DNA from: Acidobacteriota bacterium
Lineage (GTDB): Bacteria; Acidobacteriota; Blastocatellia; RBC074
Direction of reading: 5' to 3'
Assembly: GCA_016196035.1 (NCBI GenBank)
Contig: JACPYM010000029.1
Span: 62,001-126,000, forward strand
Length of the DNA: 64,000 nucleotides
The first letter of the stretch is position 1; every line of letters starts with the position of its first letter. This document shows positions 4,788-50,493 of this stretch, piece by piece. The position numbers and the translations under genes are program-made. The notes below the pieces were generated by a model that was given only the letters and a program-made list of their open reading frames with translations, did not search any database and was not told the DNA's origin.

Positions 4788-7374
<2,587 letters not shown>

Positions 7375-7387
7375 GTCGTGATACGAC

Positions 7388-7420
7388 GCAGCCGATGGCA
7401 AACCAAGCCAATCGGCTGCG
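7388..7420. terminator. Stem-loop between convergent gyrB and methylase fragment
   Basis: CGCAGCCGAT (7388-7397) pairs with ATCGGCTGCG (7411-7420) across a 13-nt loop, immediately downstream of gyrB and of the converging minus-strand gene. There is no clear U-tract. Probably a shared transcription end point. Confidence 0.55.
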
Positions 7421-7453
7421 ACGCGTGGCATTTAGTGAACCCAACCCAGCGTT

Positions 7454-8128
7454 TTAACTGCTTGGCTTTCCCTGAATAAACCAACGGCGCAATACATCCA
7501 ACACTTGCTTCCGCAGCTTTTGCGTACCTGCGCGCACTTCAGCCAATTCCTCCAAGCGGGTTTGCCCCTTCTCCAATCTGGCTTTCAATTCAGTCAACAA
7601 CCGCTGGCAATCTTTTTCCGACGCGGGGACGACTATCTCACCACGTAAACCCACCTGAGCGATGGCAAAAAGCAATTCGGCTTCGGCGCGGGTGTCGCAT
7701 ACCAGATGCGCTTTGCCTTTCTTGCCGAAGTAAAGCGTCGTGGCTTCAAAGAAGTTGGCAGCGTCTGGCAGTTGAGCGTCGCCTTCTGGTAATTCGCGCG
7801 CTTTGGCGGAGCGGCTTTGCGCCACCAGCCATTCGTGCAGCGGCTGTTGCCAGTGGGCTTCGAGTTCTGTCCAGGCGTCTTGCGCCAGTTGATTGGCGGA
7901 GACTGCCGTGCGGTTGCTCTGGCGGCGTTGCTCCATCTTTTGCACTTCGACAATGCGAATGGCGCGGAAGTGCAGCGCGACTTCACGGTAAAGCCGGTCA
8001 ATCAAGGCGGCGCGCTCCTGCGCGTCGGTGACGCCCAGCAATTCAAAGACAGCATCGTCTAACGCGCGGCGGTCGGCTTGCTGCAATTCGCGCGGCAAGC
8101 CCAGCGGCAGCTTGGCGGCTTCGCGCAC
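7454..8128 (-). CDS. C-terminal portion of the type IIG-like methylase, separated by an in-frame TAG
   Basis: 224 aa if started at GTG 8128, but the same frame is open back to the TAG at 8189-8191 that ends the preceding methylase gene, with 20 sense codons in between and no gap in the reading phase. The sequence ([14 protein letters not shown], then an LYREV segment) looks like the C-terminal target-recognition/helical end of Eco57I-like type IIG enzymes. I infer it was one protein with the upstream gene. Whether this piece is translated separately is not decidable; no good SD precedes GTG 8128. Confidence 0.7.
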
Positions 8129-8188
8129 CTCTTCGGCAGTGTGGCATTGCAGAAAGGCTTCTTCGACCAGATGCGTAACTTCGCGTTG

Positions 8189-11100
8189 CTACAGGGCGGC
8201 GAATGCGGTTTCGAGCCGTTGCAGTAGGGCTTCAGTGATGTGGCGTGGGTCGGGGATTTCGATCAGCACGGTATCCACGACTTCGGTCTTGAGATTGCCT
8301 TCTGTACCTGCGTAACGCCCAAAGAAACATTTGATCAAAGCGATCAATGTTGAATTGAGCAGTGGCATCAAGGCGCGCGTTGCCAGCGACGAACCAAGCA
8401 ATGAATGCAAATCGTAGAGATTGCAGTTGCAATTCAGGCTGTAAGTATTTGCTGGAATGATGTGCCGATACTGTTGCGACTTCGGCCAGAAACCAATACC
8501 AGTCTCAATTCCGGTTAAGTCGTACCAACGCGGACGGCCAGCGCATGTCGCGCGCTGCGGCACAGGCACGCTTTTGGATTTCTTGGAAGCAAAGGTTTCC
8601 TTGCTGCCCCAGATAATGAACTTGTATGCGAGGGTTCCTTTGATCTCCTTCAATTCCTGATTGACCCACAGTACGACGCGATTGAGTTGTTCGGGGGTAA
8701 CAACCGGACGATCAACCTGCATCAGGCTGTGAACTTCTGGTTTAACGAAGTGGGCTTCGATGGGATGCAACGTATTGTCGCCACATCTGACAATGACCAA
8801 TTCGCCGCTGGCGACAGCGGCGCGACTACAACGATGCATCAGTGGCAAGATCTTCCATTCCGCTTCGGTCTGATATTTCGCCAACAACTCTGCCGAGACG
8901 TTGCGCGGCATAAAGAAAGCATCACAGCCGCTCGTGATGCCGCGTTTGATCGTGGCGACATCGCCCAGTCGCGTGAAGCGCGCGCCAAAGCGCCGCATCA
9001 CGTCGAAGTAAAAATCCGGCGCGCGCAAATAGCGCCCCCACTTGCCGCCGCCGTATTCGCTTTGGTTCGTAGGCAGCGCCACCTGACCGGTTTCGCGTGC
9101 GGGGACGTCATCGGTTTCTTCAAAGTCCTCTTCGTCTTCTGCCCCCGCTGTTGTCTGCTGTGCGGCGACGAGCACCTTTTGCCGGGCGAACATTTGCGCG
9201 ACTGAAAGCCCTTCTTGCCAGAGTTCGCTTTGCGCGCGCTGCATGATGCGCCAGTCGTCAGTGCTTTGGTCGCTCCTGGCTTTGAGCATCAAATCGCGCA
9301 GCCGTTCTGCCGCAGCTTGCCGCAAAGGTTCCGCGCCTTCTTCGCGGCTGCCGCGCGCGCCGAGAATTTCTTTGAGCGGACGTTTGAGCCGCACGAAGCG
9401 TGTCAGGTTGGCGTTGCGTGCGGCTTCGTCATCGCAACGTTGCAGGATGACGGCGACGGTTTTGACGCGCGCGTCTTCGAACCACGGCTCGTCTACGCTC
9501 TCGATCAAAGCGACCAGCTTGAAGTAGCGCAGAATCCATTCCTGCAATGCAAACCCGTAGCGCGCATCAAGCCAACTCGATGAAACGAGAAAGCCGAACC
9601 AACCGTCCGCTTTCAAAAAACGCGCTGCCGCAGGCCAGAAATAAACGTGCAAGTCTGATTGTTTCGACAAGCCGATGCCCGGCCAGGCGCGTGTGACCAG
9701 TTCATACAAATGCTCTTTGGTTTGATCGCGGATGACGCCTTTAGCGGCTTTGGGAATTTCTTCGTGCCGCACGTAAGGCGGATTACCGACTACGGCATCG
9801 AGTGCGGGCAGCACAACGTCATAACGTTCCAGCTTGCCGCCGAGGGCGTGGCGCGGCAATTCACAAAACATCTTGTTTGGCTCGACAGTGAAGAAGTTGC
9901 GCCGGGCGATGCGCGGGTAATTCTCTTCGTTCGAGATGTTGCGCGCCGCCAGATTGAGCGTCGCCAGATGCGCCGGAAAAGGATTAATGTCGCATCCATA
10001 CAAGCCGCTGAGCAATTCCTGATTGGTCAGCCGTTTGTCGAGTTGATGTTTGCGGTAATAAGCGCGGACCAGAAAGCTGCCCGATCCGCAGGCCGGATCG
10101 AGTACGGCAGCGTCGGCGCGGCGAATGCAAAAGGCGTTGATAACATCCACCAAATCTTCGTCGGTGTAATGCTGGCCGAACTTATGGCGTTCTTCGGGGC
10201 TAATGAGCTTTTGAAAGACGCCGCCCAAAATATCGGTCGGGACTTCCTTGAAGTTGAACTTGTCTATCGCGACGATGAACTTGCCCCAGGCTTCGAGCGA
10301 ACCCGCACACGACAACGCCATCAGCGCCGATTCCTCTTTGCTTTCTGGAAAGAACACCGGTTCGTAATCGCCCGTGCGGTCAACGGCTTCCTCAAAGCGC
10401 GCCCGCAAGTAATCAAGCGCCAGTTGCGGCGTATCGGCATTACGCGGCAGTTTCAATTCGGGCAGCCGGTTGCGCGCCCGCACGGCTTGATAAAACAGGA
10501 TGCGATTGCTGAGCACGTAACACATGCTGCGCGCGGTGCGGTCAATCATGTCGCGCCACGATTCCGGGTCGCTGCGGTCGAAGTTCCATTGCTGTTCGAT
10601 CATCCATTTGATTAACAGCGCGTCGAACTCTTTGTTGCGGCTGGCTTCGACTTCCAAGTAATCGCGCAACTCACGCACTGGCCCCAGCGGGCCTGAGAGA
10701 TGCGTTTCGAGTACGGCGATGTAAAACTCGGCAGGCGGTTGGCCGAGATTGGGTTTGACGCCCTGATAAATTTCGCTGAAGTCCGCGAAGAATTTGGGCA
10801 GAAACTCATCACGCAATTTCTGGCTGACCAATTCGCGCGCCACATCGGTCGGCTTGTTCAGTTCGAGGCCGAGCCGCCATTGCCCAATGCACCGCTCGTG
10901 CATGGATTCGGCGTCCCACAACGAACGATCAAAGAGCGCCAGATGCTCGACGTTCCAGGTGAAAAAGTAGCGGCAGTTTTCGGCGGTGGCTTTGTTGAAA
11001 GCGTCCTGCATCAGCGCCAGATCGAAGGGTGAGCGGCCTTGCGGTGTGCCGGGCAGTTTGACTTCGCCACACAAGGCCAGCTTGCCTTGCCCGCCCGATT

Positions 11101-15578: not shown

Positions 15579-15599
15579 GAAGTTGATCCTTGGTTAGTG

Positions 15600-15692
15600 A
15601 TGTCCGGCAAGCTGCCAGCTTGCCGGACGCTTAGCAGTAAAACCCATTGTTCGCCAGCCGCGACCCCGGCAAGCTGGCAGCTTGCCGGACAT
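15600..15692. repeat. Perfect 27-bp inverted repeat with self-palindromic arms
   Basis: Left arm 15600-15626 and right arm 15666-15692 are exact reverse complements. Each arm contains CCGGCAAGCT..AGCTTGCCGG, a near-perfect palindrome by itself. It separates the CHAT gene stop from the lactonase start. Unlike most of the others the outer edge reads ATGTCCGG, not GTAC. Confidence 0.9.
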
Positions 15693-15702
15693 CCTGGCGG
15701 CT

Positions 15703-18312
15703 TCAGCGCGCCGCGCCCACCAACACAAACGGCGCCCAGTAATACGGATGCCGCCACGCCGGTTGTTGTCCGCGCAATAATTCCAGCTTGGCTTGGCGCA
15801 AGGCGTCGTCCTTGTTTTGTCCTTGCCGCAGATTTTTATAAAACGCCTTCATCAGCGAGGCCGTGGCGATGTCGTTGACGTTCCAGAGGCTAACGACGAC
15901 GCTTTCGGCCCCGGCGTAAAGAAACGCGCGCGTTAAACCGATGATGCCTTCGCCGTAAAGCATGTGGCCCAGACCCGTGCGGCAGGCCGAGAGCGTGACC
16001 AGCTCGGCGTTCAGTTTCAGCCGCATCACTTCGGCCATTTGCAACGCGCCGTCTTCTCTTTTGTCATTCGCTTGATCGTCAACCGGAGCCGACAACACGA
16101 TGGCCGAGCGCGCCGGGAATTCTTCGTCCACCAGCGCGTGCGTGGCGAAATGTACGTAGCGGTATTGGCCGAGCGCTGCGGCCTTGACGCTCCCCTCGGT
16201 TGCTTCCGCGCCGAGCAGCACGCGACGTTCGTTGGCGGGGAACAGCGCGGCGATTTCGTTGACCTCGTTGCGCGTGTACGGCAATGGCCGTAAGTCGGGG
16301 CCGCGCTCATTGTGTTGGATCGTCGGTACGCTTTCGGTTTCGGTTTTGGCATAGACCGGATCGCCGAACGCGATGAGACCCTTTGCCTCAGCCACGTTGG
16401 TTTTGAGCGCACGCAACGCGGCCAGGGCCGAAGCCGAGGGTGCATAACTGATGGCGAAACGTTCGAGCAGGAAGGCGGACGCGCCACGTTGCGTTTTGCC
16501 TGCCAGCGTCTCAAACGGCAAATAGGCCAGTACGCCATCGGGCACGATGATCAGTTTGCGCGCGGCGGTCAGGCGCGCTTCCAGCGGTTGAAAGAGCTTT
16601 TCATACAGCAACTGGCTTTGCGCTTTGAGCTTCGCTATGGCCTGCGCCGCCGTGGTCGAGTTGACCTTGGCGGAAGAGGCCGCGCGAAAGGCCGTGACCA
16701 GCGGCTCCAATTCTTTGCGCGGCGGCAGCGTAACCGCAGCCAGCCTGCCGGCTTGCAATACCCAAGCGAAAGAGCGCTCTTCGCCCAAGACGAATTCGAC
16801 GAGCGCTGTTTCTTGATCCGGCAATTCTGCCGCGACACGCGCAAAGCCAAGCGAGGGCGGCGCTTTGACGCTGGCATAACGCGGGTCGGCGCGGCGCAAT
16901 TCCAAGCGGTACAGTTCCAGCGCGCTCTCGGCTTCGGCGAGTTGGCGTTTCAACTGTGCTTCCTGTTCAGGCGCGAGTTCCGGCTGCCACAACTCGCGTT
17001 GAATCGCGGAGACTTGCTCAAAAAGCAGGTCTTCACGTTCCTGCTGCGCCGGGGTCAGTTCTTCTTCTGCTTCCAACCCGGTTTCGGCCAGCACATCCAG
17101 AAAGGCGCGCGCGTGATATGACTCGGCGACCTCAAAAGCTTCTTCGTGGCGCGCTTGATTGAGCAGCAGGGCAATCGCGCCGGCAAAGACCTGCTGGCGC
17201 GAGGCGACGATGCCAGCGCGCGAAATTTCAGTCGGGATCGAATGCGCGCGGGCCTCTTCGATGGCGGCGAGCGCCGCGCGGTAACTGGCGAGCGCATCAG
17301 CGGGCTGCCCCAGCTTGCGTTGTGCTTCGGCCAAGGTGGCGTGGTAGCGGGCTTCCAGATGTTTGTTCCCGCCCGTGCGCTGCAAAATGCTCAGGGCTTG
17401 TTTCGCCGCCTCGCGCGCGCCCGGTGCATTGCCGGATTTGAGTTGCGTTGCGGCGTAATCACCCAGCACCAGCGCTTCGGGTTGCGGCAGGCGCAACGTG
17501 CGCACGATGCGCAGCGCCTGCTCAAAAAGCGCTGCGGCTTTGGCGGGCTGCTCGAGCGCGGCGTGCACGGTGGCGAGTTGATAGTACAGTTCGGCGTGCG
17601 GGAAGGCGGCGGGCACGCGCGCCAGCAACGCTTGCGCCTGTTGGCCGTATTGCAACGCGGTTTGCCAATTGCCGCGCCCTTTCTCGACGGCGACCAACCG
17701 GCGCAAGACGGTGGCTTCGGTTTCCTGGTCGGCCACCGTGCGGGCGATAGGCAAGGCGCGTTGCAGGTGCGACATGGCCTGGGCAAAGTCGCCGGTCTCG
17801 GCAAAGACTGCGCCCAGGCGGGCGAGGGCGCGCGCTTCGCCCGCTTGATCCTGGCGCTGGCGATAGAGTTGCAGGGTTTGCTGAAAGCAAAACAGCGCAT
17901 CGGCATAGCGGCCTGACTGCAACAACAGCCCGCCCGCGCGCGATAGCGCATTGGTTTGCAAGGGGCCGATACCCGCTTCATCGGCGTTGAGCGAAGCTTG
18001 TTTGAACAAGCGAATGGCTTCGTTCATGCGGCCCGTGTGAAAGGCCGCGAGGGCCAGCAAATTGGTGGCACGCGCCTGTCGCGCTTTGTCGCCTTGTTCT
18101 TGGCTCAACCTAAGGGCCTGATTGGCGGCTTGATAAGCGGGCAAAAAGTTTTTGTTCTGTAAGTGCCGGGCGGCGGTTTTGAGCAGTTGTTCAGCGTTGG
18201 CGGATTGGGCCGGTGTTTGCGGATTGGAGCGGCGGGCTTGCAGATGGGCAGAGCACGGCAACGACAGGCAAATCAACGCCAGCAGACCCAGCAAAAACGC
18301 CATTCGCTTCAT
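15703..18312 (-). CDS. Exported TPR-CHAT (caspase-like) protein
   Basis: 869 aa from ATG 18312 (GGGAG 9 nt upstream); the frame continues to 18339 without SD. N-terminal signal peptide MKRMAFLLGLLALICLSLPCSAH, so exported. Residues about 40-400 are tandem TPR helices (LLKTAARHLQNKNFLPAYQAANQALRL and similar). The C-terminal about 300 residues form a CHAT domain: catalytic His in VHFATHALV and Cys in TLSACRTGLGHM, followed by GLTRAFLYAGAESVVVSLWNVND. CHAT domains are caspase-superfamily cysteine proteases. Third gene after the sigma and anti-sigma genes; a 38-bp inverted repeat sits between it and the anti-sigma gene. Confidence 0.92.
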   Translation of the reverse strand: MKRMAFLLGLLALICLSLPCSAHLQARRSNPQTPAQSANAEQLLKTAARHLQNKNFLPAYQAANQALRLSQEQGDKARQARATNLLALAAFHTGRMNEAIRLFKQASLNADEAGIGPLQTNALSRAGGLLLQSGRYADALFCFQQTLQLYRQRQDQAGEARALARLGAVFAETGDFAQAMSHLQRALPIARTVADQETEATVLRRLVAVEKGRGNWQTALQYGQQAQALLARVPAAFPHAELYYQLATVHAALEQPAKAAALFEQALRIVRTLRLPQPEALVLGDYAATQLKSGNAPGAREAAKQALSILQRTGGNKHLEARYHATLAEAQRKLGQPADALASYRAALAAIEEARAHSIPTEISRAGIVASRQQVFAGAIALLLNQARHEEAFEVAESYHARAFLDVLAETGLEAEEELTPAQQEREDLLFEQVSAIQRELWQPELAPEQEAQLKRQLAEAESALELYRLELRRADPRYASVKAPPSLGFARVAAELPDQETALVEFVLGEERSFAWVLQAGRLAAVTLPPRKELEPLVTAFRAASSAKVNSTTAAQAIAKLKAQSQLLYEKLFQPLEARLTAARKLIIVPDGVLAYLPFETLAGKTQRGASAFLLERFAISYAPSASALAALRALKTNVAEAKGLIAFGDPVYAKTETESVPTIQHNERGPDLRPLPYTRNEVNEIAALFPANERRVLLGAEATEGSVKAAALGQYRYVHFATHALVDEEFPARSAIVLSAPVDDQANDKREDGALQMAEVMRLKLNAELVTLSACRTGLGHMLYGEGIIGLTRAFLYAGAESVVVSLWNVNDIATASLMKAFYKNLRQGQNKDDALRQAKLELLRGQQPAWRHPYYWAPFVLVGAAR

Positions 18313-18326
18313 CGTTGCAACTCCCG

Positions 18327-18450
18327 CCTGGGTACGCACCGCTTCCAGCGTGCGGGCTTGGCAGAGAACGAATGAATGCCAGGGGGAAACCCTATCGGCA
18401 TCAATGCGTCCGCTGCCAAGCCCGCACGCTGGAAGCGGTGCGTACCCAGG
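18327..18450. repeat. Perfect 38-bp inverted repeat, family copy 1
   Basis: Left arm 18327-18364 and right arm 18413-18450 are exact reverse complements (38 nt). The arm starts CCTGGGTACGCACCGCTTCC. A second copy at 57152-57259 has the same first 29 nt but a different loop. The loop here has its own small hairpin (ATGCC..GGCAT). It lies inside the sigma-antisigma-CHAT gene run. Confidence 0.93.
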
Positions 18451-18453
18451 TTG

Positions 18454-19266
18454 TCACGGCTTCTGAACTTGTAATTTATATTCGCCGACCAACTCGCGCT
18501 GGCCGTCGTGTAAGCCGTAACACTTCACCACATATTTGCCGGTCTGTAAAAGGTTGGCGGGCACACTGGCTGAAATGGCCCCGCGTGGGCTGGCTTTGCC
18601 GCTGTTGACGGTCGTGACCAGCCGTTTGGAGTTGTCGAAGAGTTGAAACTGAAAGCCGGAATACGAACTGTTGGGCTCGACTTCAATACGCAGCGCGGCG
18701 CTGGCCGCGTTCGCGGGAATGGTCAGTTGATTGCCGCCGCCGCTGCCATCGCGTTCGGAATCCAAAAAGACGACGGGCGCTTTGCCGGGCGCAAGGTCGG
18801 GCGTTTGGGGCGGGCGGTTTTGCGCCAGCAGGTCGGGTTGATTTTGCAGCTTCGGGCGCGCACCGGGCGTAGGTGTGGAGGTTGTTCCTGGCGTGACTGC
18901 CGGGTGGGGTGTTGGCGTCGGCGTTTGCTGAATGGCCAGTTCCTGACGCGGCGCAGAGTTTTGTTTGAACAACAGCCAGCCAAACGCCACGGCCAGCGCC
19001 AGCCCGGTGGCGACGGCAAAACCGAGCGCGGGTTTGAACAGTACCACTCGCCAGGGCCACCAGCGCTCCGCCACGCTTTCGGCCAGTAAGCCTTGGCGAG
19101 ACGCTTGCCGGACACCGGCCACAAAACGCGCGGTCATTTCCACCTGCTCAAAGCATTCCTCACAGCCAAAATAATGTTCCTGGAACGCGCGCCGCTCGTC
19201 AGGCGTGAGTTGGCGCCGCACGAAGCGTTCGACGATCTCGCCCTGTTGTACCTCTTGGTGCGTCAT
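18454..19266 (-). CDS. Anti-sigma factor-like zinc-finger membrane protein
   Basis: 270 aa. Residues about 10-42 carry an anti-sigma ZAS-like motif, HYFGCEECFEQV (H-x3-C-x2-C), after LTPDERRAFQE. One membrane helix about residues 80-100 (ALGFAVATGLALAVAFGWLLF). A long P/T-rich linker (TPTPTPHPAVTPGTTSTPTPG) leads to an extracytoplasmic beta-rich domain of about 110 residues. It is 38 nt behind the ECF sigma gene. By position and motif it likely holds that sigma factor at the membrane and releases it on an extracytoplasmic signal. Confidence 0.82.
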   Translation of the reverse strand: MTHQEVQQGEIVERFVRRQLTPDERRAFQEHYFGCEECFEQVEMTARFVAGVRQASRQGLLAESVAERWWPWRVVLFKPALGFAVATGLALAVAFGWLLFKQNSAPRQELAIQQTPTPTPHPAVTPGTTSTPTPGARPKLQNQPDLLAQNRPPQTPDLAPGKAPVVFLDSERDGSGGGNQLTIPANAASAALRIEVEPNSSYSGFQFQLFDNSKRLVTTVNSGKASPRGAISASVPANLLQTGKYVVKCYGLHDGQRELVGEYKLQVQKP

Positions 19267-19304
19267 GGTTTCTGTTGCTTAGTGCAGCGAGTTGCCCGTT
19301 TGTA

Positions 19305-19880
19305 TCACTTTATTTTTCGAGCACGCGTCATTTTCTGATAAAGCTCCCGAAAGCTCTGCAACGCGCGCGATTTGATCAGCCGCAAGCGTTCTTCTTTGAT
19401 GCCCAGCTTTTGTGCAATCTCCGGGTTCGGCAGCTCTTCGTAATAATACATGCGCAAAAACTGTTGCTCGCGCGGCTTCAACTGGCGGGCGAGTTCCTTC
19501 AACGCGCGGCCCGTCTCGGCATCCAGCAGCGCCTGTTCCAGCGAGCCGTCGCCCGCGCTGTCGTATTCATAATCTTCCAGCGAATCCACGCGATACTTTT
19601 GCCGCACAAGCTCGCGCACGACGTTGAGCGTGATGCCGACGATAAATGAAGGCAGTGAATCAGCCGAACGCAACTTGTCTTGCCGCAGCGCCTGAATCAC
19701 ACGCAAGAAAGTTTCGGCCCGCGCATCCTCGGCGTCTTCTTTTGAGTGGGTTTCGCTAAGCGCGGTGAAGTAAACGCGCGTCGAGAACTTTTGATAGAGC
19801 ACGGCTTCCGCCTCGGCCTCGCCTTGGCGGATGCGGGTGACGATTTCCTGATTGGTGAGGATTTCCGCGCGGGTGTGCAT
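19305..19880 (-). CDS. ECF RNA polymerase sigma factor
   Basis: 191 aa. Region 2 (AVLYQKFSTRVYFTALSETHSKEDAEDARAETFLRVIQAL) and region 4 (LKPREQQFLRMYYYEELPNPEIAQKLGIKEERLRLIKSRALQ) of a group IV sigma-70 factor are clear. Start at ATG 19880; a longer frame to 20264 would run through an inverted repeat. First gene of a run with the anti-sigma and TPR-CHAT genes, which implies co-regulated expression of the CHAT protein in response to envelope signals (inference). Confidence 0.9.
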   Translation of the reverse strand: MHTRAEILTNQEIVTRIRQGEAEAEAVLYQKFSTRVYFTALSETHSKEDAEDARAETFLRVIQALRQDKLRSADSLPSFIVGITLNVVRELVRQKYRVDSLEDYEYDSAGDGSLEQALLDAETGRALKELARQLKPREQQFLRMYYYEELPNPEIAQKLGIKEERLRLIKSRALQSFRELYQKMTRARKIK

Positions 19881-19927
19881 ACGGGCGGGGATTCTACTCA
19901 AAGCCCGCCAAGAGCGATAGGGTGAGA

Positions 19928-20030
19928 CAGTACGGGGAGCGTGAGCGACCTGAGTCCCGGTAATCGAAGCATTGAAGGAAAGCCAAACCGCCTGACACCA
20001 AGACTCAGGTCGCTCACGCTCCCCGTACTG
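19928..20030. repeat. Perfect 28-bp inverted repeat starting CAGTACGGGGAGCG
   Basis: Left arm 19928-19955 and right arm 20003-20030 are exact reverse complements over 28 nt with a 47-nt loop. It lies just upstream of the ECF sigma gene. A related but decayed element occurs at 32619-32694. The rest of the 19881-20176 gap shows nothing else identifiable. Confidence 0.9.
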
Positions 20031-20176
20031 TTTGGGGGCTTCCCAAGAAAAAATAAAAAGCCCAAAAAAGTTTGATACACCTTGCGGCCCCGCCGCACTA
20101 CTTACCGAACAAGCAAGCCGGAGCTGAGGCCGGTTGAAAGATTGAAACAGTTGAAACGAAGCAAAGGAGCTATGAA

Positions 20177-20419
20177 ATGAAAAGGACGACGTTCGCCAGC
20201 GCAGTGTTGAGTTTGATGATGGCCTGTTCGACCGTGGGCTTGGGCCAGAGCAAGGCCAAAGCACGCGTCAAACCGCCAGTCAAAGGCGGCGGGCAGATTT
20301 GCACCGGTTGCTGCGATCCCTGCTATTCCGATGACTGGTGGAAAATCCGGCAGCCGCAATCAAACGCCCCCAATGCAAAGGCAACCAAGTCCACCCGCGC
20401 CAGGAAAGGCAATCGCTAG
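20177..20419 (+). CDS. Small exported cysteine-rich protein, unknown
   Basis: 80 aa. Signal peptide MKRTTFASAVLSLMMACSTVGLGQ, then a basic linker and a cysteine-rich knot ICTGCCDPCYSDDWW, ending in a basic tail. SD AAAGGAG precedes ATG. Not recognised. The CxxCCxxC spacing could bind metal or form disulphides after export. First of three small exported proteins in a row. Confidence 0.65.
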   Translation: MKRTTFASAVLSLMMACSTVGLGQSKAKARVKPPVKGGGQICTGCCDPCYSDDWWKIRQPQSNAPNAKATKSTRARKGNR

Positions 20420-20538: not shown

Positions 20539-20886
20539 ATGAAAACACTATCCACCATTCTTTTCGCCTTCACGCTTTCATTGGGCTTGACCGTCATCGC
20601 TGCGGCGCAAACCCCTACGCCGACGCCTGGGAAAAAGACGCCGGTCGCTACTGCGCGGCAGGGCAATCAGCAAAAACGCATTGGCCGCGGCGTCGCTTCA
20701 GGCGAATTGAAGGCCGGCGAAGCGCGCAAGCTGGAAAAGGAACAGCAAGAGATTCAGCAAGAGAAGAAAGAAGCGCGCGCCGATGGCACCGTGACGGGCG
20801 AGGAACGCAAAGACATTCAGAAAGATCAGAACAAAGCGAGCCGCCACGTGTACCGCGCCAAGCACAACAACAAAACGCGGAAGTAA
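20539..20886 (+). CDS. Small exported basic protein with ELKAGEARKLEKEQ motif
   Basis: 115 aa from ATG 20539 (SD AAGGAG, 9 nt upstream). Signal peptide MKTLSTILFAFTLSLGLTVIAAAQ; PTPTPGKK linker; then a helical region with repeated motifs SGELKAGEARKLEKEQQEIQ and DGTVTGEERKDIQKDQN. The latter looks like an EF-hand-like calcium loop (D-G-T-V-T-G-E-E). Homologous small proteins of this layout are known only as hypothetical proteins. Exported; possibly a calcium- or cation-binding protein (inference). Confidence 0.7.
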   Translation: MKTLSTILFAFTLSLGLTVIAAAQTPTPTPGKKTPVATARQGNQQKRIGRGVASGELKAGEARKLEKEQQEIQQEKKEARADGTVTGEERKDIQKDQNKASRHVYRAKHNNKTRK

Positions 20887-21336: not shown

Positions 21337-21660
21337 ATGTTCAAAAGCAAAATCATTATCGCTGGTTTGAGTTTCGTCCTGCTGCTTTACACTGCCGCGC
21401 TTGCGCAAGGCAAAGGCCAGCGCAGCGGCGCGAACCACCAGCGCAAAGCCGGGAAATACGCCAATCAGGAAGTGAGCTATCGCCAGTCCAACACCGCCCG
21501 CAAATTCGACCAGAGCACGTTGCCTCCCGCTGGGAATACCCAGACCCAATTGTTGCCTTACGTCGAACAGGGCAATCTGAAAACGGCCAGGCCGAAACCG
21601 CAAAATCTGTTGCCGTACATCGAACAATCCAACCTGCGCCGCCACCCGCGCAAACGATAA
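21337..21660 (+). CDS. Small exported protein with LLPY(V/I)EQ repeats
   Basis: 107 aa. Signal peptide MFKSKIIIAGLSFVLLLYTAALAQ, a basic segment, then two near-copies of an 11-residue motif: LLPYVEQGNLK and LLPYIEQSNLR. SD AAAGGAAG upstream. Not recognised. The repeat suggests a short binding element present twice. Follows the three-hairpin repeat element. Confidence 0.65.
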   Translation: MFKSKIIIAGLSFVLLLYTAALAQGKGQRSGANHQRKAGKYANQEVSYRQSNTARKFDQSTLPPAGNTQTQLLPYVEQGNLKTARPKPQNLLPYIEQSNLRRHPRKR

Positions 21661-21742: not shown

Positions 21743-22756
21743 ATGAAAGGTCTAGTGTACCTGTTGACGATCAGTGTCTTTATTGGCGCCTTGTCCGGCG
21801 CAACGTTGGGGCAAACCGTTCCCACCCGCTTCGGCTTTCCAAAAGAAGACGCCGGCAAACGCACGGTGAATCTGCAAGTGGAAGGCGTGGCGCGCGAAGT
21901 CGTTTTTTATCGCCCGCCCAATTTGCCGGCGAATCAGGCCGTACCGGTGGTGTTTGTTTTTCACGGCACGGGCGGTTCAGGCGAAGGCGCTTATGACGAC
22001 ATGGGCTGGAAAGAAAAGGCCGAGCAGGAAGGTTTCATGGCCGTTTTCCCCTCGGCCTTGCGCTATCACATCTTTGACGAAACGCTGGTCAAGAACGGGC
22101 AGGTCTTGCACGACATGCAACGCAACACGACCAAGTTCAATTTCTTTGGCTTCGAGAAACTGCTTGATCCGGCCTACCCCGATCAGCATGTGTACGATGA
22201 CGTGAAATTCGTGCAGGTGATCGTCGAGTTGTTGACCAAGCACTATGCCGTAGACGCCGACCGGTTTTATGTGACGGGCTTTTCCAACGGTGGGCAATTC
22301 GCGCAACGCTTGCTGGTACAGATGTCGGATGTGTTTGCGGCCTTCGCGCTGTGTTCCATCGGACGCGGCTTTAATGCCGAAGATTTCACGCACGCCAACG
22401 ATTACACCAGCGCACCGTTCCAACCACGCACTGTCATGCACATGATCGGCGAACTCGATCCGAAGCTGAATTACGCGGCGCAGGTCGCAGGCTTTCCGCT
22501 CGACGAATCCGCCGCCGCGCCGGGCACGTGGACGAATGCCGTGATGCAGGGCTTCGTCCAATTGTTAGGTTTGTCGGCTGATTACGGCTACAAACGCACC
22601 CCCCGCGCGTCGGTGTTTCACTACGGCGGAACCGGCGCGACGACTTATGATTTCGTGCTTGTCGAAGGCATGCGCCACATCTATCCGAACGGCGAGAACT
22701 TCAGCTTCCAAGCGGTGGATGTCTTCTGGCTGTTTCTGAAACAGCATCACCGCTAA
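21743..22756 (+). CDS. LpqC/feruloyl-esterase-like secreted alpha/beta hydrolase
   Basis: 337 aa with signal peptide MKGLVYLLTISVFIGALSGATLGQ. The alpha/beta hydrolase fold is marked by VVFVFHGTGGSG (oxyanion HGxGG) and the nucleophile elbow GFSNGGQ (G-x-S-x-G) about residue 180; a late His in EGMRHIYP is the likely catalytic His. Belongs with PHB depolymerase/feruloyl esterase (COG3509) enzymes; substrate could be a polyester or an aryl ester. SD AAGGAG. Confidence 0.87.
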   Translation: MKGLVYLLTISVFIGALSGATLGQTVPTRFGFPKEDAGKRTVNLQVEGVAREVVFYRPPNLPANQAVPVVFVFHGTGGSGEGAYDDMGWKEKAEQEGFMAVFPSALRYHIFDETLVKNGQVLHDMQRNTTKFNFFGFEKLLDPAYPDQHVYDDVKFVQVIVELLTKHYAVDADRFYVTGFSNGGQFAQRLLVQMSDVFAAFALCSIGRGFNAEDFTHANDYTSAPFQPRTVMHMIGELDPKLNYAAQVAGFPLDESAAAPGTWTNAVMQGFVQLLGLSADYGYKRTPRASVFHYGGTGATTYDFVLVEGMRHIYPNGENFSFQAVDVFWLFLKQHHR

Positions 22757-44662: not shown

Positions 44663-45238
44663 ATGCCAATAACCGACAGCGAAACCCTGACCTTACTTTT
44701 GCAACGCGCCAGCTCCGGTGAACAAGCCGCCGTGGACCAACTTCTTTCGATCGTGTATCCCGAGTTGCGCCGCATGGCAAGCAAACGATTGCGGCTGGAA
44801 CGATCCGACCACACCTTGCAACCCACAGCACTGGTCAACGAAGTCTACCTGCGCCTGTTTGGCGCGCTGCCCATTAACTGGCAGAACCGGGCGCATTTTT
44901 TTGCCCTCGCCGCCAAACACATGCGCTTCATTCTGGTGGAACACGCGCGCAACCGGCGCGGCGGTGCGCAGTTCACTATTTCGCTGGAAGGCGGTGAAGA
45001 CGGCGAGCCGCTGCAAATTCCCGTTAGCTCCAAGCAGGATTTGCTCGAACTGGACGAAGTCTTGGGGCAACTGGAAGCGATTGACCCGCGCGCCGCACAC
45101 GGCGTGGAGTTGCGCTATTTCGTTGGCCTGACGCAACAGGAGATTGCCGAGATACAAAAGATTGACGTCGCCACGGTCAAACGCGATTGGGTCTTTGCCA
45201 AAGCGTGGTTGCATAGCCGCCTCAAATCTTCTGCCTGA
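44663..45238 (+). CDS. ECF-like sigma factor, acidobacterial type (TIGR02999-like)
   Basis: 191 aa. Region 2: LLQRASSGEQAAVDQLLSIVYPELRRMASKRLRLERSDHTLQPTALVNEVYLRLF, the pattern typical of the Acidobacteria/Planctomycetes ECF subfamily. Region 4: LEAIDPRAAHGVELRYFVGLTQQEIAEIQKIDVATVKRDWVFAKAWLHSRL. Such sigma factors often sit next to a Ser/Thr kinase gene; one lies at 52477. It is 19 nt after fahA but probably belongs to the following signalling block. Confidence 0.92.
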   Translation: MPITDSETLTLLLQRASSGEQAAVDQLLSIVYPELRRMASKRLRLERSDHTLQPTALVNEVYLRLFGALPINWQNRAHFFALAAKHMRFILVEHARNRRGGAQFTISLEGGEDGEPLQIPVSSKQDLLELDEVLGQLEAIDPRAAHGVELRYFVGLTQQEIAEIQKIDVATVKRDWVFAKAWLHSRLKSSA

Positions 45239-46827: not shown

Positions 46828-46920
46828 CGGGCGCTTATATTTTTTGTGCGGGCGGGCTAAGCTCACAGCCGTTCGCCGTTTTCGATCCTTAGCGGAACCA
46901 TCATCACAAGGAGTTTGCTT

Positions 46921-49900
46921 ATGTTCGCTCGTGCTTTTCGTGCTTCAGCTTCTGCGGCCAAGCCGTTGTCGGGTTCGTTGCGTGTGTTTTGGCTGCTGGC
47001 GTTTTTCAGTGTTGCGCTGAGTGCGGGTTGGCGGGTGAACAGCAACGCGCAGACCGGGGCGGCAAACCAGTCGCAAACGAATGCCGCACCTTTGGTTACA
47101 TTGGAACTGGGAAAGCCGATTGAGCGTGAGTTGGCGGGCGGGCAAAGACATGGTTATCAAGTCAAGCTCGAAGCCGGACAATACTTGCGCGTGGTAGCCG
47201 AGCAGCGTGGAGTTGATGTAGTGCTGTCAATGTTCAAGCCTGATGGCACAAAATCTTTTGAGATTGATAGCCCTAATGGAACCGAGGGAGAGGAAAGTAT
47301 TGCGACTGCCGCTGATATTGCAGGTATTTATCTTATTGAAGTAACAGCGCCTGACACAAAGGTTAAGCCGGGCAAATATCAAATACAGGTTGGCGAATTA
47401 CGAAAGTTGACTGAAGAGGAATTGAAACTTCCCAGCCTGCTTCAGTCAATCAAGCGTGAAATGGCAGGAGGGCAATCGCACGACTACAGTCTGGCATTAG
47501 GCGCTGATGAATATCTTTATTTCTTCGCGAAACAAAACAATTTAGATGTCATGTTGACAATCTTCGACCCGTACGGAAATCGGCTTGCCCGCTTTGATAA
47601 CACCTACGGTGCAAGGCTTTCACAAGACCTCATGTTTGTAACTACTGTGGCGGGCGTTTATCGGCTTGAAGTGAAAGCAGTCGAGAAAGAGGCAAAAGCT
47701 GGTAGCTATGAACTGAGGATTGTTGACTGGCATTTTGCGACACCAAGAGATCGCGATCTAGCGGAAGCAGAAAAATGTTTCAACGAAGAAGGCTTTTTGC
47801 GTGAAGAAATAAAGTTCAATGAGGCGATGCTGGCAGCAGAAAAAGCCTTGGCGTTATACGAGAAAATTTACGGCTCGGAACATGTCATGGTTGCGAATGC
47901 GCTTCAGTCGCTGGCATTTATTCATCACGAGCGTGGGGAGTTGGCAAAGTCCGAACAATGCTTTCTGCGTGAGATCAAAATACGCGAGAAAATAGACGGT
48001 CCAAAATCCATTTGGATTGTGAGGCTCTCTTATCACTTGGCAAACTTATATCTCGACATGGGGGAATACACACGGGCCGAGCAGTTTTATCAGCGTGCGT
48101 TAGACTTGCGGAAAAACTTCTCTTATGAGCGGCTTTATCCGGCACGGGCGGCAATTCTGAATGGCCTGGCCTTGGCTTACCGCAACATGGGTAGTTATGA
48201 AAAAGCCGAGCCGCTATTTCAAAGTTCTCAGGAGACCTTTGCCAAACTCGGTGGCCCAGAAAACTCGGAGAACCTTGATAGAGCTTATGTGTTCAACAAC
48301 CTTGGAGTTCTGTATCACTGGAAAGGCGACGTTGAAAAAGCTGTGGCCGCTTACGAGCGTTCTCTCGGGATGATGGAGAAGGTTGAAAGCATTGATGTCG
48401 TTGCCCCGCTCAGCGGCCTCGCCCGCATCTACACCGACAAACAAAATTACGATCGGGCTGAGCCTCTTTATCAACGTGCCTTGGCGATTCGAACTAAGTC
48501 TCACGGTGCTGATGGGTATAGCACGGCTTTCGTCTTGAGAGACTTTGCGCAAATGTACGGCGCGCAGGGAAACTACGACCAAGCCAGTTCGTTCTATCAG
48601 CGCTCCATCGAAATCTTTGAGCGACTGCTCGGCCCCGAACACCCGGACTTGGCTGGAAGTTTACTCGGACTTGCCAAGGTGGAGCGAGACCATGGAAACC
48701 TGCGCGAAGCTTTGGCGTTGTTCGAGCAGGGTGTTGAGATCACCGAGAAAAACTTTAGGAAGAATCTGGGTGCCGGATCAGAACAGCAGAAATTGAACTA
48801 TCTGGCGCGCTTCAATCCCCTCATCAATGACGCCATCACGCTCCACGCCCGCTATGCTCCCGGCGACACACAAGCGCGCCGTATGGCGTTGACCAGTCTA
48901 CTTCGTTTCAAAGGACGCGGGCTGGACGAGATGACCGACACCATCGCCTTCTTGCGTCGTAGCACGCGGCAGGAAGATCAGACATTGCTGGAGCAACTCG
49001 CTTCCGCCCGCTCCCGGCTGGCCGTGCTAACCTTGCGCGGGCCGGAAGAGCGTACAATGACGATCTATCGTGCATTGCTCATTCAATTGGGAGAAGAAAT
49101 TGATCGATTGGAAAGCGAGTTGAGTTCCAAAAGCGACGAAATTCGCGCACGGCTACAACCAGTTACACTGGCGGCTGTGCAAGCCGCCCTACCCGCTGAG
49201 TCGGCTGTTGTCGAGTTCGCGCTTTATTCGCCAATGAAAAGGCTGACACGGCAGCAGGACGCGCATTACTTGGCATACGTTCTTTCATCTCGAGACGAAC
49301 CACGCTGGGTCGAACTCGGCGAAGCAGCGGTTATTGACCAAGCGGTAGACCAACTCCGGCAATCGCTTTGCCGCCAACAACCCGGCGAATCACGCTGCCG
49401 TCCGTTAAGTCTGAGCGAAACCCGTGCTAGTGCTCGCAAACTGGATGAGTTAGTAATGCGCCCGATCCGCAGATTGTTGGGCGCGGCCAGACATGTGCTC
49501 ATCTCTCCTGACGGGGCGCTCAACCTTGTCCCATTCGCCGCGTTAGTTGATGAGCACAATAGCTACCTGACGGAGCATTATTCATTTACCTATTTGACCA
49601 GCGGGCGCGATTTACTGCGTTTGCAAATTCAGCAACCAGATAGCAACTCCGCCGCTGTGTTGGTTGCTGCGCCGGCTTTCGATAGCGCGACAGGCGGGAC
49701 TGTCATGGCGCAAGTGAAAGCCGAGCAGGCGCGCGACATCATCAAACATCCCGCGAGCGGTCAACAACCGAACGTCATCAGTCAAAGCGTCAGCATGGCG
49801 CAACTCAGTTTTCCGCCATTGCCTGGTACTGCGGCGGAAGTTGAAACCTTGAAAAAGCTCCTACCACAAGCTGACCTGCTACTCGGTCCGCAAGCTACCG

Positions 49901-50493
49901 AAGCGGCGTTGAAACAATTGCACCGTCCGCGCATTCTGCATATCGCCACACATGGTTTCTTCCTGAAAGACCTTGCGCTGCCAGATGCGCCGCACGGCCC
50001 GAACGGTTCGTTTAGCGAGGCATTGGCGAGTGCGCCAAGTGCGCCAACGAATGGCGAGAAGATTGAAAATCCGTTGCTGCGCTCTGGGCTGGCGCTGGCC
50101 GGTGCCAACCGGCATCAAGGCGACGAAGACGGTATCTTGACGGCACTCGAAGCTGTCGGACTTGACCTCTGGGGCACGAAGCTCGTCGCCCTCTCAGCCT
50201 GCAACACGGGCGTCGGCGAAATCAAAAACGGCGATGGCGTCTACGGCCTGCGCCGCGCCTTTGTGCTCGCAGGGTCTGAAACGCAAGTGATGAGCTTGTG
50301 GTCAGTCTCCGATCAAGGCACGAAAGAATTGATGGTGGCGTATTACAAACGCCTGTTGCATGGTGAAGGGCGCGGCGAAGCGTTGCGCCAGGTGCAATTG
50401 CAATTGCTGAAACAGCCCAAGCGTCGTCATCCTTACTACTGGGCCAGCTTCATTCAATCTGGTGAGTGGGCGAATCTGGACGGGCGGCGTTAG
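46921..50493 (+). CDS. Large exported PPC-TPR-CHAT protein
   Basis: 1190 aa from ATG 46921 (SD AAGGAG). Signal peptide then membrane-like N-terminus (SLRVFWLLAFFSVALSAGWRV). Two bacterial pre-peptidase C-terminal-type domains about residues 50-145 and 165-265 (PIERELAGGQRHGYQVKLEAGQYLRVVAEQ; REMAGGQSHDYSLALGADEYLYFFAKQN). TPRs about residues 280-620. CHAT domain at the end: His about residue 1011 in HIATHGFFL, Cys about 1093 in ALSACNTGVGEI. AT-richer for the first 2 kb. Caspase-like protease or pseudo-enzyme, exported. Confidence 0.9.
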   Translation: MFARAFRASASAAKPLSGSLRVFWLLAFFSVALSAGWRVNSNAQTGAANQSQTNAAPLVTLELGKPIERELAGGQRHGYQVKLEAGQYLRVVAEQRGVDVVLSMFKPDGTKSFEIDSPNGTEGEESIATAADIAGIYLIEVTAPDTKVKPGKYQIQVGELRKLTEEELKLPSLLQSIKREMAGGQSHDYSLALGADEYLYFFAKQNNLDVMLTIFDPYGNRLARFDNTYGARLSQDLMFVTTVAGVYRLEVKAVEKEAKAGSYELRIVDWHFATPRDRDLAEAEKCFNEEGFLREEIKFNEAMLAAEKALALYEKIYGSEHVMVANALQSLAFIHHERGELAKSEQCFLREIKIREKIDGPKSIWIVRLSYHLANLYLDMGEYTRAEQFYQRALDLRKNFSYERLYPARAAILNGLALAYRNMGSYEKAEPLFQSSQETFAKLGGPENSENLDRAYVFNNLGVLYHWKGDVEKAVAAYERSLGMMEKVESIDVVAPLSGLARIYTDKQNYDRAEPLYQRALAIRTKSHGADGYSTAFVLRDFAQMYGAQGNYDQASSFYQRSIEIFERLLGPEHPDLAGSLLGLAKVERDHGNLREALALFEQGVEITEKNFRKNLGAGSEQQKLNYLARFNPLINDAITLHARYAPGDTQARRMALTSLLRFKGRGLDEMTDTIAFLRRSTRQEDQTLLEQLASARSRLAVLTLRGPEERTMTIYRALLIQLGEEIDRLESELSSKSDEIRARLQPVTLAAVQAALPAESAVVEFALYSPMKRLTRQQDAHYLAYVLSSRDEPRWVELGEAAVIDQAVDQLRQSLCRQQPGESRCRPLSLSETRASARKLDELVMRPIRRLLGAARHVLISPDGALNLVPFAALVDEHNSYLTEHYSFTYLTSGRDLLRLQIQQPDSNSAAVLVAAPAFDSATGGTVMAQVKAEQARDIIKHPASGQQPNVISQSVSMAQLSFPPLPGTAAEVETLKKLLPQADLLLGPQATEAALKQLHRPRILHIATHGFFLKDLALPDAPHGPNGSFSEALASAPSAPTNGEKIENPLLRSGLALAGANRHQGDEDGILTALEAVGLDLWGTKLVALSACNTGVGEIKNGDGVYGLRRAFVLAGSETQVMSLWSVSDQGTKELMVAYYKRLLHGEGRGEALRQVQLQLLKQPKRRHPYYWASFIQSGEWANLDGRR

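Follow-up and report, generated by a model that had tools for sequence, protein, structure and literature searches.

Why is an exported protein with a caspase-like CHAT domain encoded next to a sigma factor and its membrane-bound inhibitor? The question is raised by a locus in a 64,000-bp stretch of DNA from an Acidobacteriota bacterium (contig JACPYM010000029.1 of assembly GCA_016196035.1; further referred to as the window), which is part of a 9.59-Mb genome in 139 contigs. Genes for an extracytoplasmic function (ECF) sigma factor (P0003), a zinc-finger anti-sigma factor (P0002) and a tetratricopeptide repeat (TPR) protein with a CHAT domain (P0001) are grouped together on its minus strand. 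An initial annotation had described these genes as lying side by side and encoding an ECF sigma factor, a transmembrane zinc-finger anti-sigma factor and a TPR-CHAT protein with a signal peptide, and domain searches confirmed it. The answer that we favor, giving it about an even chance of being correct, is an envelope-sensing switch in which the CHAT protein controls the anti-sigma factor, cleavage being the likeliest mode.

Gene content and conserved gene order

P0003 is a two-domain ECF protein: the Pfam domains Sigma70_r2 (residues 28–97) and Sigma70_r4 (residues 133–178) both score above the cut-offs, and orthologs in four other genera are 86, 75, 70 and 55% identical to it. P0002 matches zf-HC2 with 22.9 bits (cut-off 22.2). 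Its HX3CX2C zinc motif at residues 31–38 is also present in three orthologs, and such an N-terminal motif followed by a transmembrane segment is the arrangement of ZAS-type anti-sigma factors. The AlphaFold model of P0002 comprises helices at residues 3–57, a single transmembrane helix at about 80–101 and a C-terminal beta-sandwich (pLDDT 87–94 per block for residues 181–270). P0002 is predicted to bind and inhibit P0003. In P0001 about 400 residues of TPRs and other helices are followed by the CHAT domain (PF12770, 278.6 bits), and the hydrophobic N-terminus reads, by inspection, as a Sec signal peptide, so that the protein is predicted to be exported. The GTG start in the list of open reading frames (ORFs), at 18339, falls within a palindrome, and the gene likely starts at the ATG at 18312.

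The anti-sigma protein was used to search 162 genomes of the class. Within the family, three further genera have full-length close relatives, with identities of 61, 62 and 40%. The order sigma, anti-sigma, CHAT on one strand is retained at loci L084, L085 and L086, and CHAT identity in the three order-keeping genera is 73, 64 and 56%; in L086 two genes for secreted proteins are inserted between the sigma and anti-sigma genes. The nearest named relatives, Acidobacteria Bin_42R (L105) and Blastocatellia MAG-252 (L104), were counted once with G006 and G004. The initial annotation had treated the three genes as one functional unit and would have given this up if the order were not conserved and the catalytic pair of the CHAT domain were degenerate in relatives. 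The order is conserved in three other genera and backs the single unit, and the catalytic pair is kept, as described below.

Ig-like anti-sigma factors, CHAT genes and their fusions

The C-terminal domain of P0002 is immunoglobulin (Ig)-like. No Pfam family covered this domain in P0002, L050, L054 or L085, the best Foldseek rows for the P0002 model were only generic beta-sandwiches (CopC, azurin, CTLA-4, baseplate proteins), and P0002 alone as a query retrieved no named relatives. An iterative profile of this domain caught 38 ORFs in the fetched loci, some places being represented by two loci, and 30 of the domains were aligned (alignment A4). Across the family (11 genomes), 44 matches to A4 were obtained, at least 31 of which have a CHAT gene within 5 kb (1.5 expected by chance) and at least 36 within 10 kb. 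Since some A4 rows originate from CHAT neighborhoods, the count was repeated without the seed rows, leaving 15 of 26 domains near CHAT (binomial P about 6e-15); among the other 11, five are located on contigs of G003 and G004, whose genomes are fragmentary. The phylum-wide test used the best 40 rows, excluding rows from the same family and six rows already in A4, and their neighbors had not been inspected beforehand. A sigma gene was found within 2.5 kb in 37 of the 40 cases, and a CHAT gene within 5 kb in 29, the latter figure standing without a CHAT background for those genomes; both were present in 29. The A4-type Ig-like C-terminal domain marks a class of anti-sigma factors linked to CHAT genes.

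The sigma genes beside the phylum-wide Ig-like anti-sigma genes mostly belong to a diverged group (hidden Markov model sig2), unlike P0003. Sigma genes of this group occur together with degenerate zinc-finger anti-sigma and CHAT genes in L041, L044, L047, L052 and many of L088–L102 and L135–L174, the CHAT gene often coming first, the sigma gene second and the anti-sigma gene last; Pfam is silent for L047. The group may be a new ECF group.

The neighborhood could in principle be due to chance, given the high counts of both gene types in this genome (118 sigma and 35 CHAT matches). A sigma gene lies within 5 kb of 11 of the 35 CHAT domains, against 4.05 expected. We consider coincidence extremely improbable in view of the gene order kept at the CHAT identities given above, the proximity of CHAT genes to the non-seed Ig-like domains, and a promoter motif that tracks the sigma ortholog (see below). 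The window contains a second CHAT gene (46915–50493, plus strand; L031), with an ECF sigma gene (44663–45238, plus strand) 1.7 kb upstream and two ORFs on the opposite strand between them.

In two other loci of this genome, L042 and L049, a sigma gene is followed by a gene for one long protein, consisting of a zinc-finger or degenerate anti-sigma domain, a transmembrane segment, TPRs and CHAT. The same fused plan was observed in L134, from a metagenome-assembled genome (MAG) titled Acidobacteriia. The zf-HC2 score of L042 (20.5 bits) is under the cut-off, and recognition of the zinc motif in L049 and L134 was by pattern only. As the zinc finger would be cytoplasmic and there is a single transmembrane helix, CHAT in the fused proteins should lie outside, in agreement with the signal sequence of the separately encoded CHAT protein. 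Such natural fusions point to an action of CHAT upstream, on the anti-sigma factor, so that it would be more than just a downstream target. Downstream of all three fused genes there are similar-looking genes of about 280–290 aa, as judged by eye.

His725 and Cys777 of P0001 are invariant in alignment A3, and the dyad is intact in 42 of the 43 CHAT proteins examined. With a caspase-like fold in the model and this dyad, P0001 qualifies as a predicted peptidase. The CHAT protein might instead be a non-cleaving sensor or scaffold that binds the Ig-like domain and shifts the conformation or oligomeric state of the anti-sigma factor, with the dyad unused. Such a role would agree with L057, where a CHAT gene (6556–9927) lacking both catalytic residues (P/A) follows sigma and anti-sigma genes, and with DdvA from Myxococcus xanthus, which the titles of PDB entries 8rot and 8rw5 describe as a dimeric transmembrane anti-sigma factor (molecule name CHAT domain-containing protein). 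We regard it as distinctly unlikely, given the near-universal retention of both residues. The L057 paralog may be a pseudo-protease version, so that at least one such set may work without cleavage.

The AlphaFold model of P0001 (pLDDT 83) was built from 12 sequences. DdvA, separase and Csx29 head its Foldseek list, with low TM-scores for DdvA (about 0.26). A second structure alignment yielded Csx29 with Z about 31 (residues 31–868) and separase with Z about 27, and DdvA was not among the 50 rows listed. The rmsd is often large, up to 13.5 Å, so the domain arrangement of P0001 is either different or uncertain. Pure TPR proteins also score high Z, hence the TPR portion drives much of the fold score, and the CHAT identity of P0001 follows from PF12770 and the CHAT-only profile A5. 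Compared with PDB sequences, the A3 profile retrieved only TPR-type proteins in the best 60 of 238 matches, while A5 matched Csx29 and DdvA (residues 827–975 of 991, E 2e-9).

Promoter motif, predicted targets and palindromes

Comparison of upstream regions revealed the motif TGATACA-N15-GCACTA, flanked by A-tracts upstream and a GTACCGAAC-like sequence downstream. Two exact sites are present in the window (Table 1). The loci that contain the motif (11 of 174) are all of the P0003-like sigma type. In 13 genomes there are 16 exact sites, compared to none for the reversed pattern. The motif occurs in all six genomes whose P0003 ortholog is unbroken (the one in G003 is truncated by the contig end) and in none of the seven others, including G025 with its broken sigma gene. 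Together with L106, 17 sites were examined: four precede anti-sigma genes (the start of the L106 gene was read from the sequence) and 13 precede genes with signal-like sequences, recognized by eye, at distances of 12–225 nt. L106 is a MAG contig labelled Verrucomicrobia that encodes a CHAT ortholog with 44% identity and has the same motif; its anti-sigma gene contains an in-frame stop at 367–369. Allowing one mismatch added no further site in this genome (the reversed control gave one match). The predicted regulon is therefore local and consists of the anti-sigma and CHAT genes and four divergent genes with signal-like sequences, although the motif does not directly precede one of these (20539–20886) in the window. 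A target preceded by the motif in G004 is CsgG/LpoB-like. The generic ECF promoter GGAAC-N15-17-CGTC was also tried and rejected: it has one match in the window, away from the locus, against 2.07 expected by chance.

Table 1. Coordinates in the window of the three genes, their domains and predicted promoters, the divergent genes and the palindromic element.
Feature	Position	Strand	Basis
ECF sigma factor P0003, 191 aa	19305–19880	-	Sigma70_r2/r4, TIGR02937 77 bits; orthologs
Anti-sigma factor P0002, 270 aa: N-terminal HX3CX2C, one transmembrane helix, proline-rich linker	18454–19266	-	zf-HC2; AlphaFold
Ig-like C-terminal domain of P0002, predicted periplasmic, residues 163–269	18460–18780	-	AlphaFold pLDDT, A4 alignment
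TPR-CHAT protein P0001, predicted exported, 869 aa, predicted catalytic His725/Cys777	15703–18312	-	PF12770, A3 alignment, fold
Palindromic element in the anti-sigma/CHAT gap, dispersed in the genome	18327–18450	.	about 124 bp, 54-nt arms
Predicted sigma-dependent promoter before anti-sigma/CHAT, overlaps sigma stop codon	19280–19307	-	exact TGATACA-N15-GCACTA
Second predicted sigma-dependent promoter, toward divergent secreted-protein genes	20073–20100	+	exact TGATACA-N15-GCACTA
Predicted target: 80-aa secreted protein	20177–20419	+	motif end 76 nt upstream of ATG
Predicted target or co-transcribed: 115-aa secreted Lys/Glu-rich protein	20539–20886	+	exact motif precedes homologs in G006, G009
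107-aa secreted protein, same divergent run	21337–21660	+	position and signal sequence only
Secreted esterase-like protein, same divergent run	21743–22756	+	PF00756 22.7 bits; G006 homolog directly preceded by motif

The expectation of the initial annotation that the sigma factor increases expression of the CHAT gene is supported, as a prediction, by this sigma-linked motif just before the anti-sigma/CHAT pair, and the best reading is that CHAT itself belongs to the sigma regulon. The self-damage pathway suggested there found no support, the other predicted targets being small secreted, esterase-like and CsgG/LpoB-like proteins. The same data bear on another explanation, namely that CHAT is an output only: a sigma-induced exported protease acting on envelope or foreign proteins, with sigma freed by some other protease or by a ligand. 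A promoter predicted to drive the anti-sigma and CHAT genes jointly, and remaining predicted targets that are likewise secreted, are what it would lead one to expect. Against this, the three fusions and the CHAT-bearing anti-sigma factor DdvA place CHAT in the signaling chain, and the CHAT gene may precede, follow or converge on the anti-sigma gene, yet the pairing persists. We therefore find it rather doubtful that CHAT is an output alone.

The sequence TAGAAT/TACAAT is located about 10 nt 5' of the sigma start codon in four of four orthologs (region 19881–19915 here), and this position suggests a leaderless housekeeping transcript for the sigma gene.

The 38-bp inverted repeat reported between the anti-sigma and CHAT genes is real and forms the core of a longer palindrome (Table 1), but it is not part of the system. 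The palindrome is dispersed over at least 40 sites, a lower bound because a genome search scored only 40 of its 197 candidates (80 matches when both strands are counted). In orthologs the gap between the two genes is 37–66 bp with the palindrome absent; a role as an operon part was rejected. The element likely belongs to a MITE- or REPIN-like family. Two more near-perfect palindromes are located at the 3' end of the CHAT gene (15599–15693) and on the 5' side of the sigma gene (19927–20031). The latter lies upstream of the sigma gene, where it may have taken the place of a −35 element of the housekeeping type. A defense-system reading was also dropped: PADLOC applied to P0001–P0003 gave a single match, a TPR model in P0001, and none for P0002 or P0003.

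Proposed switch and comparison with known systems

The proposed switch would operate as follows. The cytoplasmic zinc-finger domain of the anti-sigma factor would hold the ECF sigma factor, and the protein would span the inner membrane, with its Ig-like domain in the periplasm. A periplasmic signal would be read by the exported TPR-CHAT protein, probably via its TPRs, and this protein would then free sigma by acting on the anti-sigma factor, a site-1 cut being the likeliest way. The freed sigma would then fire the two local promoters, the first providing anti-sigma and CHAT as feedback and the second serving the divergent genes of secreted proteins. The fusions and the Ig-domain link are the reasons for proposing that the anti-sigma factor is under the control of CHAT, and cleavage is suggested by analogy with Craspase. 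More tentatively, and with the balance of probability somewhat against it, the exported CHAT protein could be the dedicated site-1 protease of the Ig-like-marked anti-sigma class in Acidobacteriota, a caspase-type counterpart of DegS/RseA whose fused and split forms interchange.

Several observations weigh against the switch. The sigma ortholog of G156 (55% identity) is accompanied by a broken anti-sigma gene, and in G025 the sigma frame contains a TAG and the anti-sigma gene is split; the stretches fetched from these two genomes contain no CHAT gene. G004 has no exact motif between its sigma and anti-sigma genes. Eleven of the 40 phylum-wide anti-sigma genes have no CHAT gene within 5 kb, and the L057 set lacks the dyad. 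Finally, the position of a CHAT gene next to that of an anti-sigma factor is just as compatible with CHAT being an output.

No description of the three-gene set was found in the literature searched. Separase, which cleaves cohesin, resembles P0001 in combining a helical repeat array with a caspase-fold protease (Z value above), but is eukaryotic and has no sigma link. DdvA, at the top of the Foldseek list, is a CHAT-bearing transmembrane anti-sigma factor for the ECF sigma factor DdvS, which is reported to be active once DdvA is inactivated (PMC4374960). DdvA is one 991-residue chain, whereas in the window anti-sigma and CHAT are separate genes and the anti-sigma factor has a separate Ig-like periplasmic domain; the fused form is also present in this genome (L042, L049). 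In Craspase, a type III-E CRISPR system, a TPR-CHAT protease, Csx29, is reported to cut Csx30, an inhibitor of an ECF sigma factor, relieving CASP-sigma (PMC10028731), and its fold matches that of P0001 (Z value above). Csx29, however, is complexed with Cas7-11 and RNA, while P0001 carries a signal sequence; the inhibitor here is a membrane zinc-finger anti-sigma factor, and P0001 scores 17.1 bits with the Csx29 equivalog model NCBIfam NF041237 against a cut-off of 300. In ECF54 the genes of CHAT and other peptidases are conserved in the genetic context of the sigma gene and proteolytic control has been proposed; ECF54 is described as working without an anti-sigma factor (PMC8999054), whereas here P0002 is encoded between sigma and CHAT.

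Genomes of this kind commonly encode CHAT proteins, most of which have no assigned role. The present analysis connects many of them with the anti-sigma factors of the Ig-like class and, at this locus, with a predicted promoter and a few predicted target genes nearby, so that their role can be addressed directly with a reporter. Related switches likely recur across the phylum, in this case with a recognizable promoter and secreted proteins as likely targets, and our observations suggest that the link between CHAT and sigma factors, as seen in Craspase and in DdvA, extends far beyond CRISPR.

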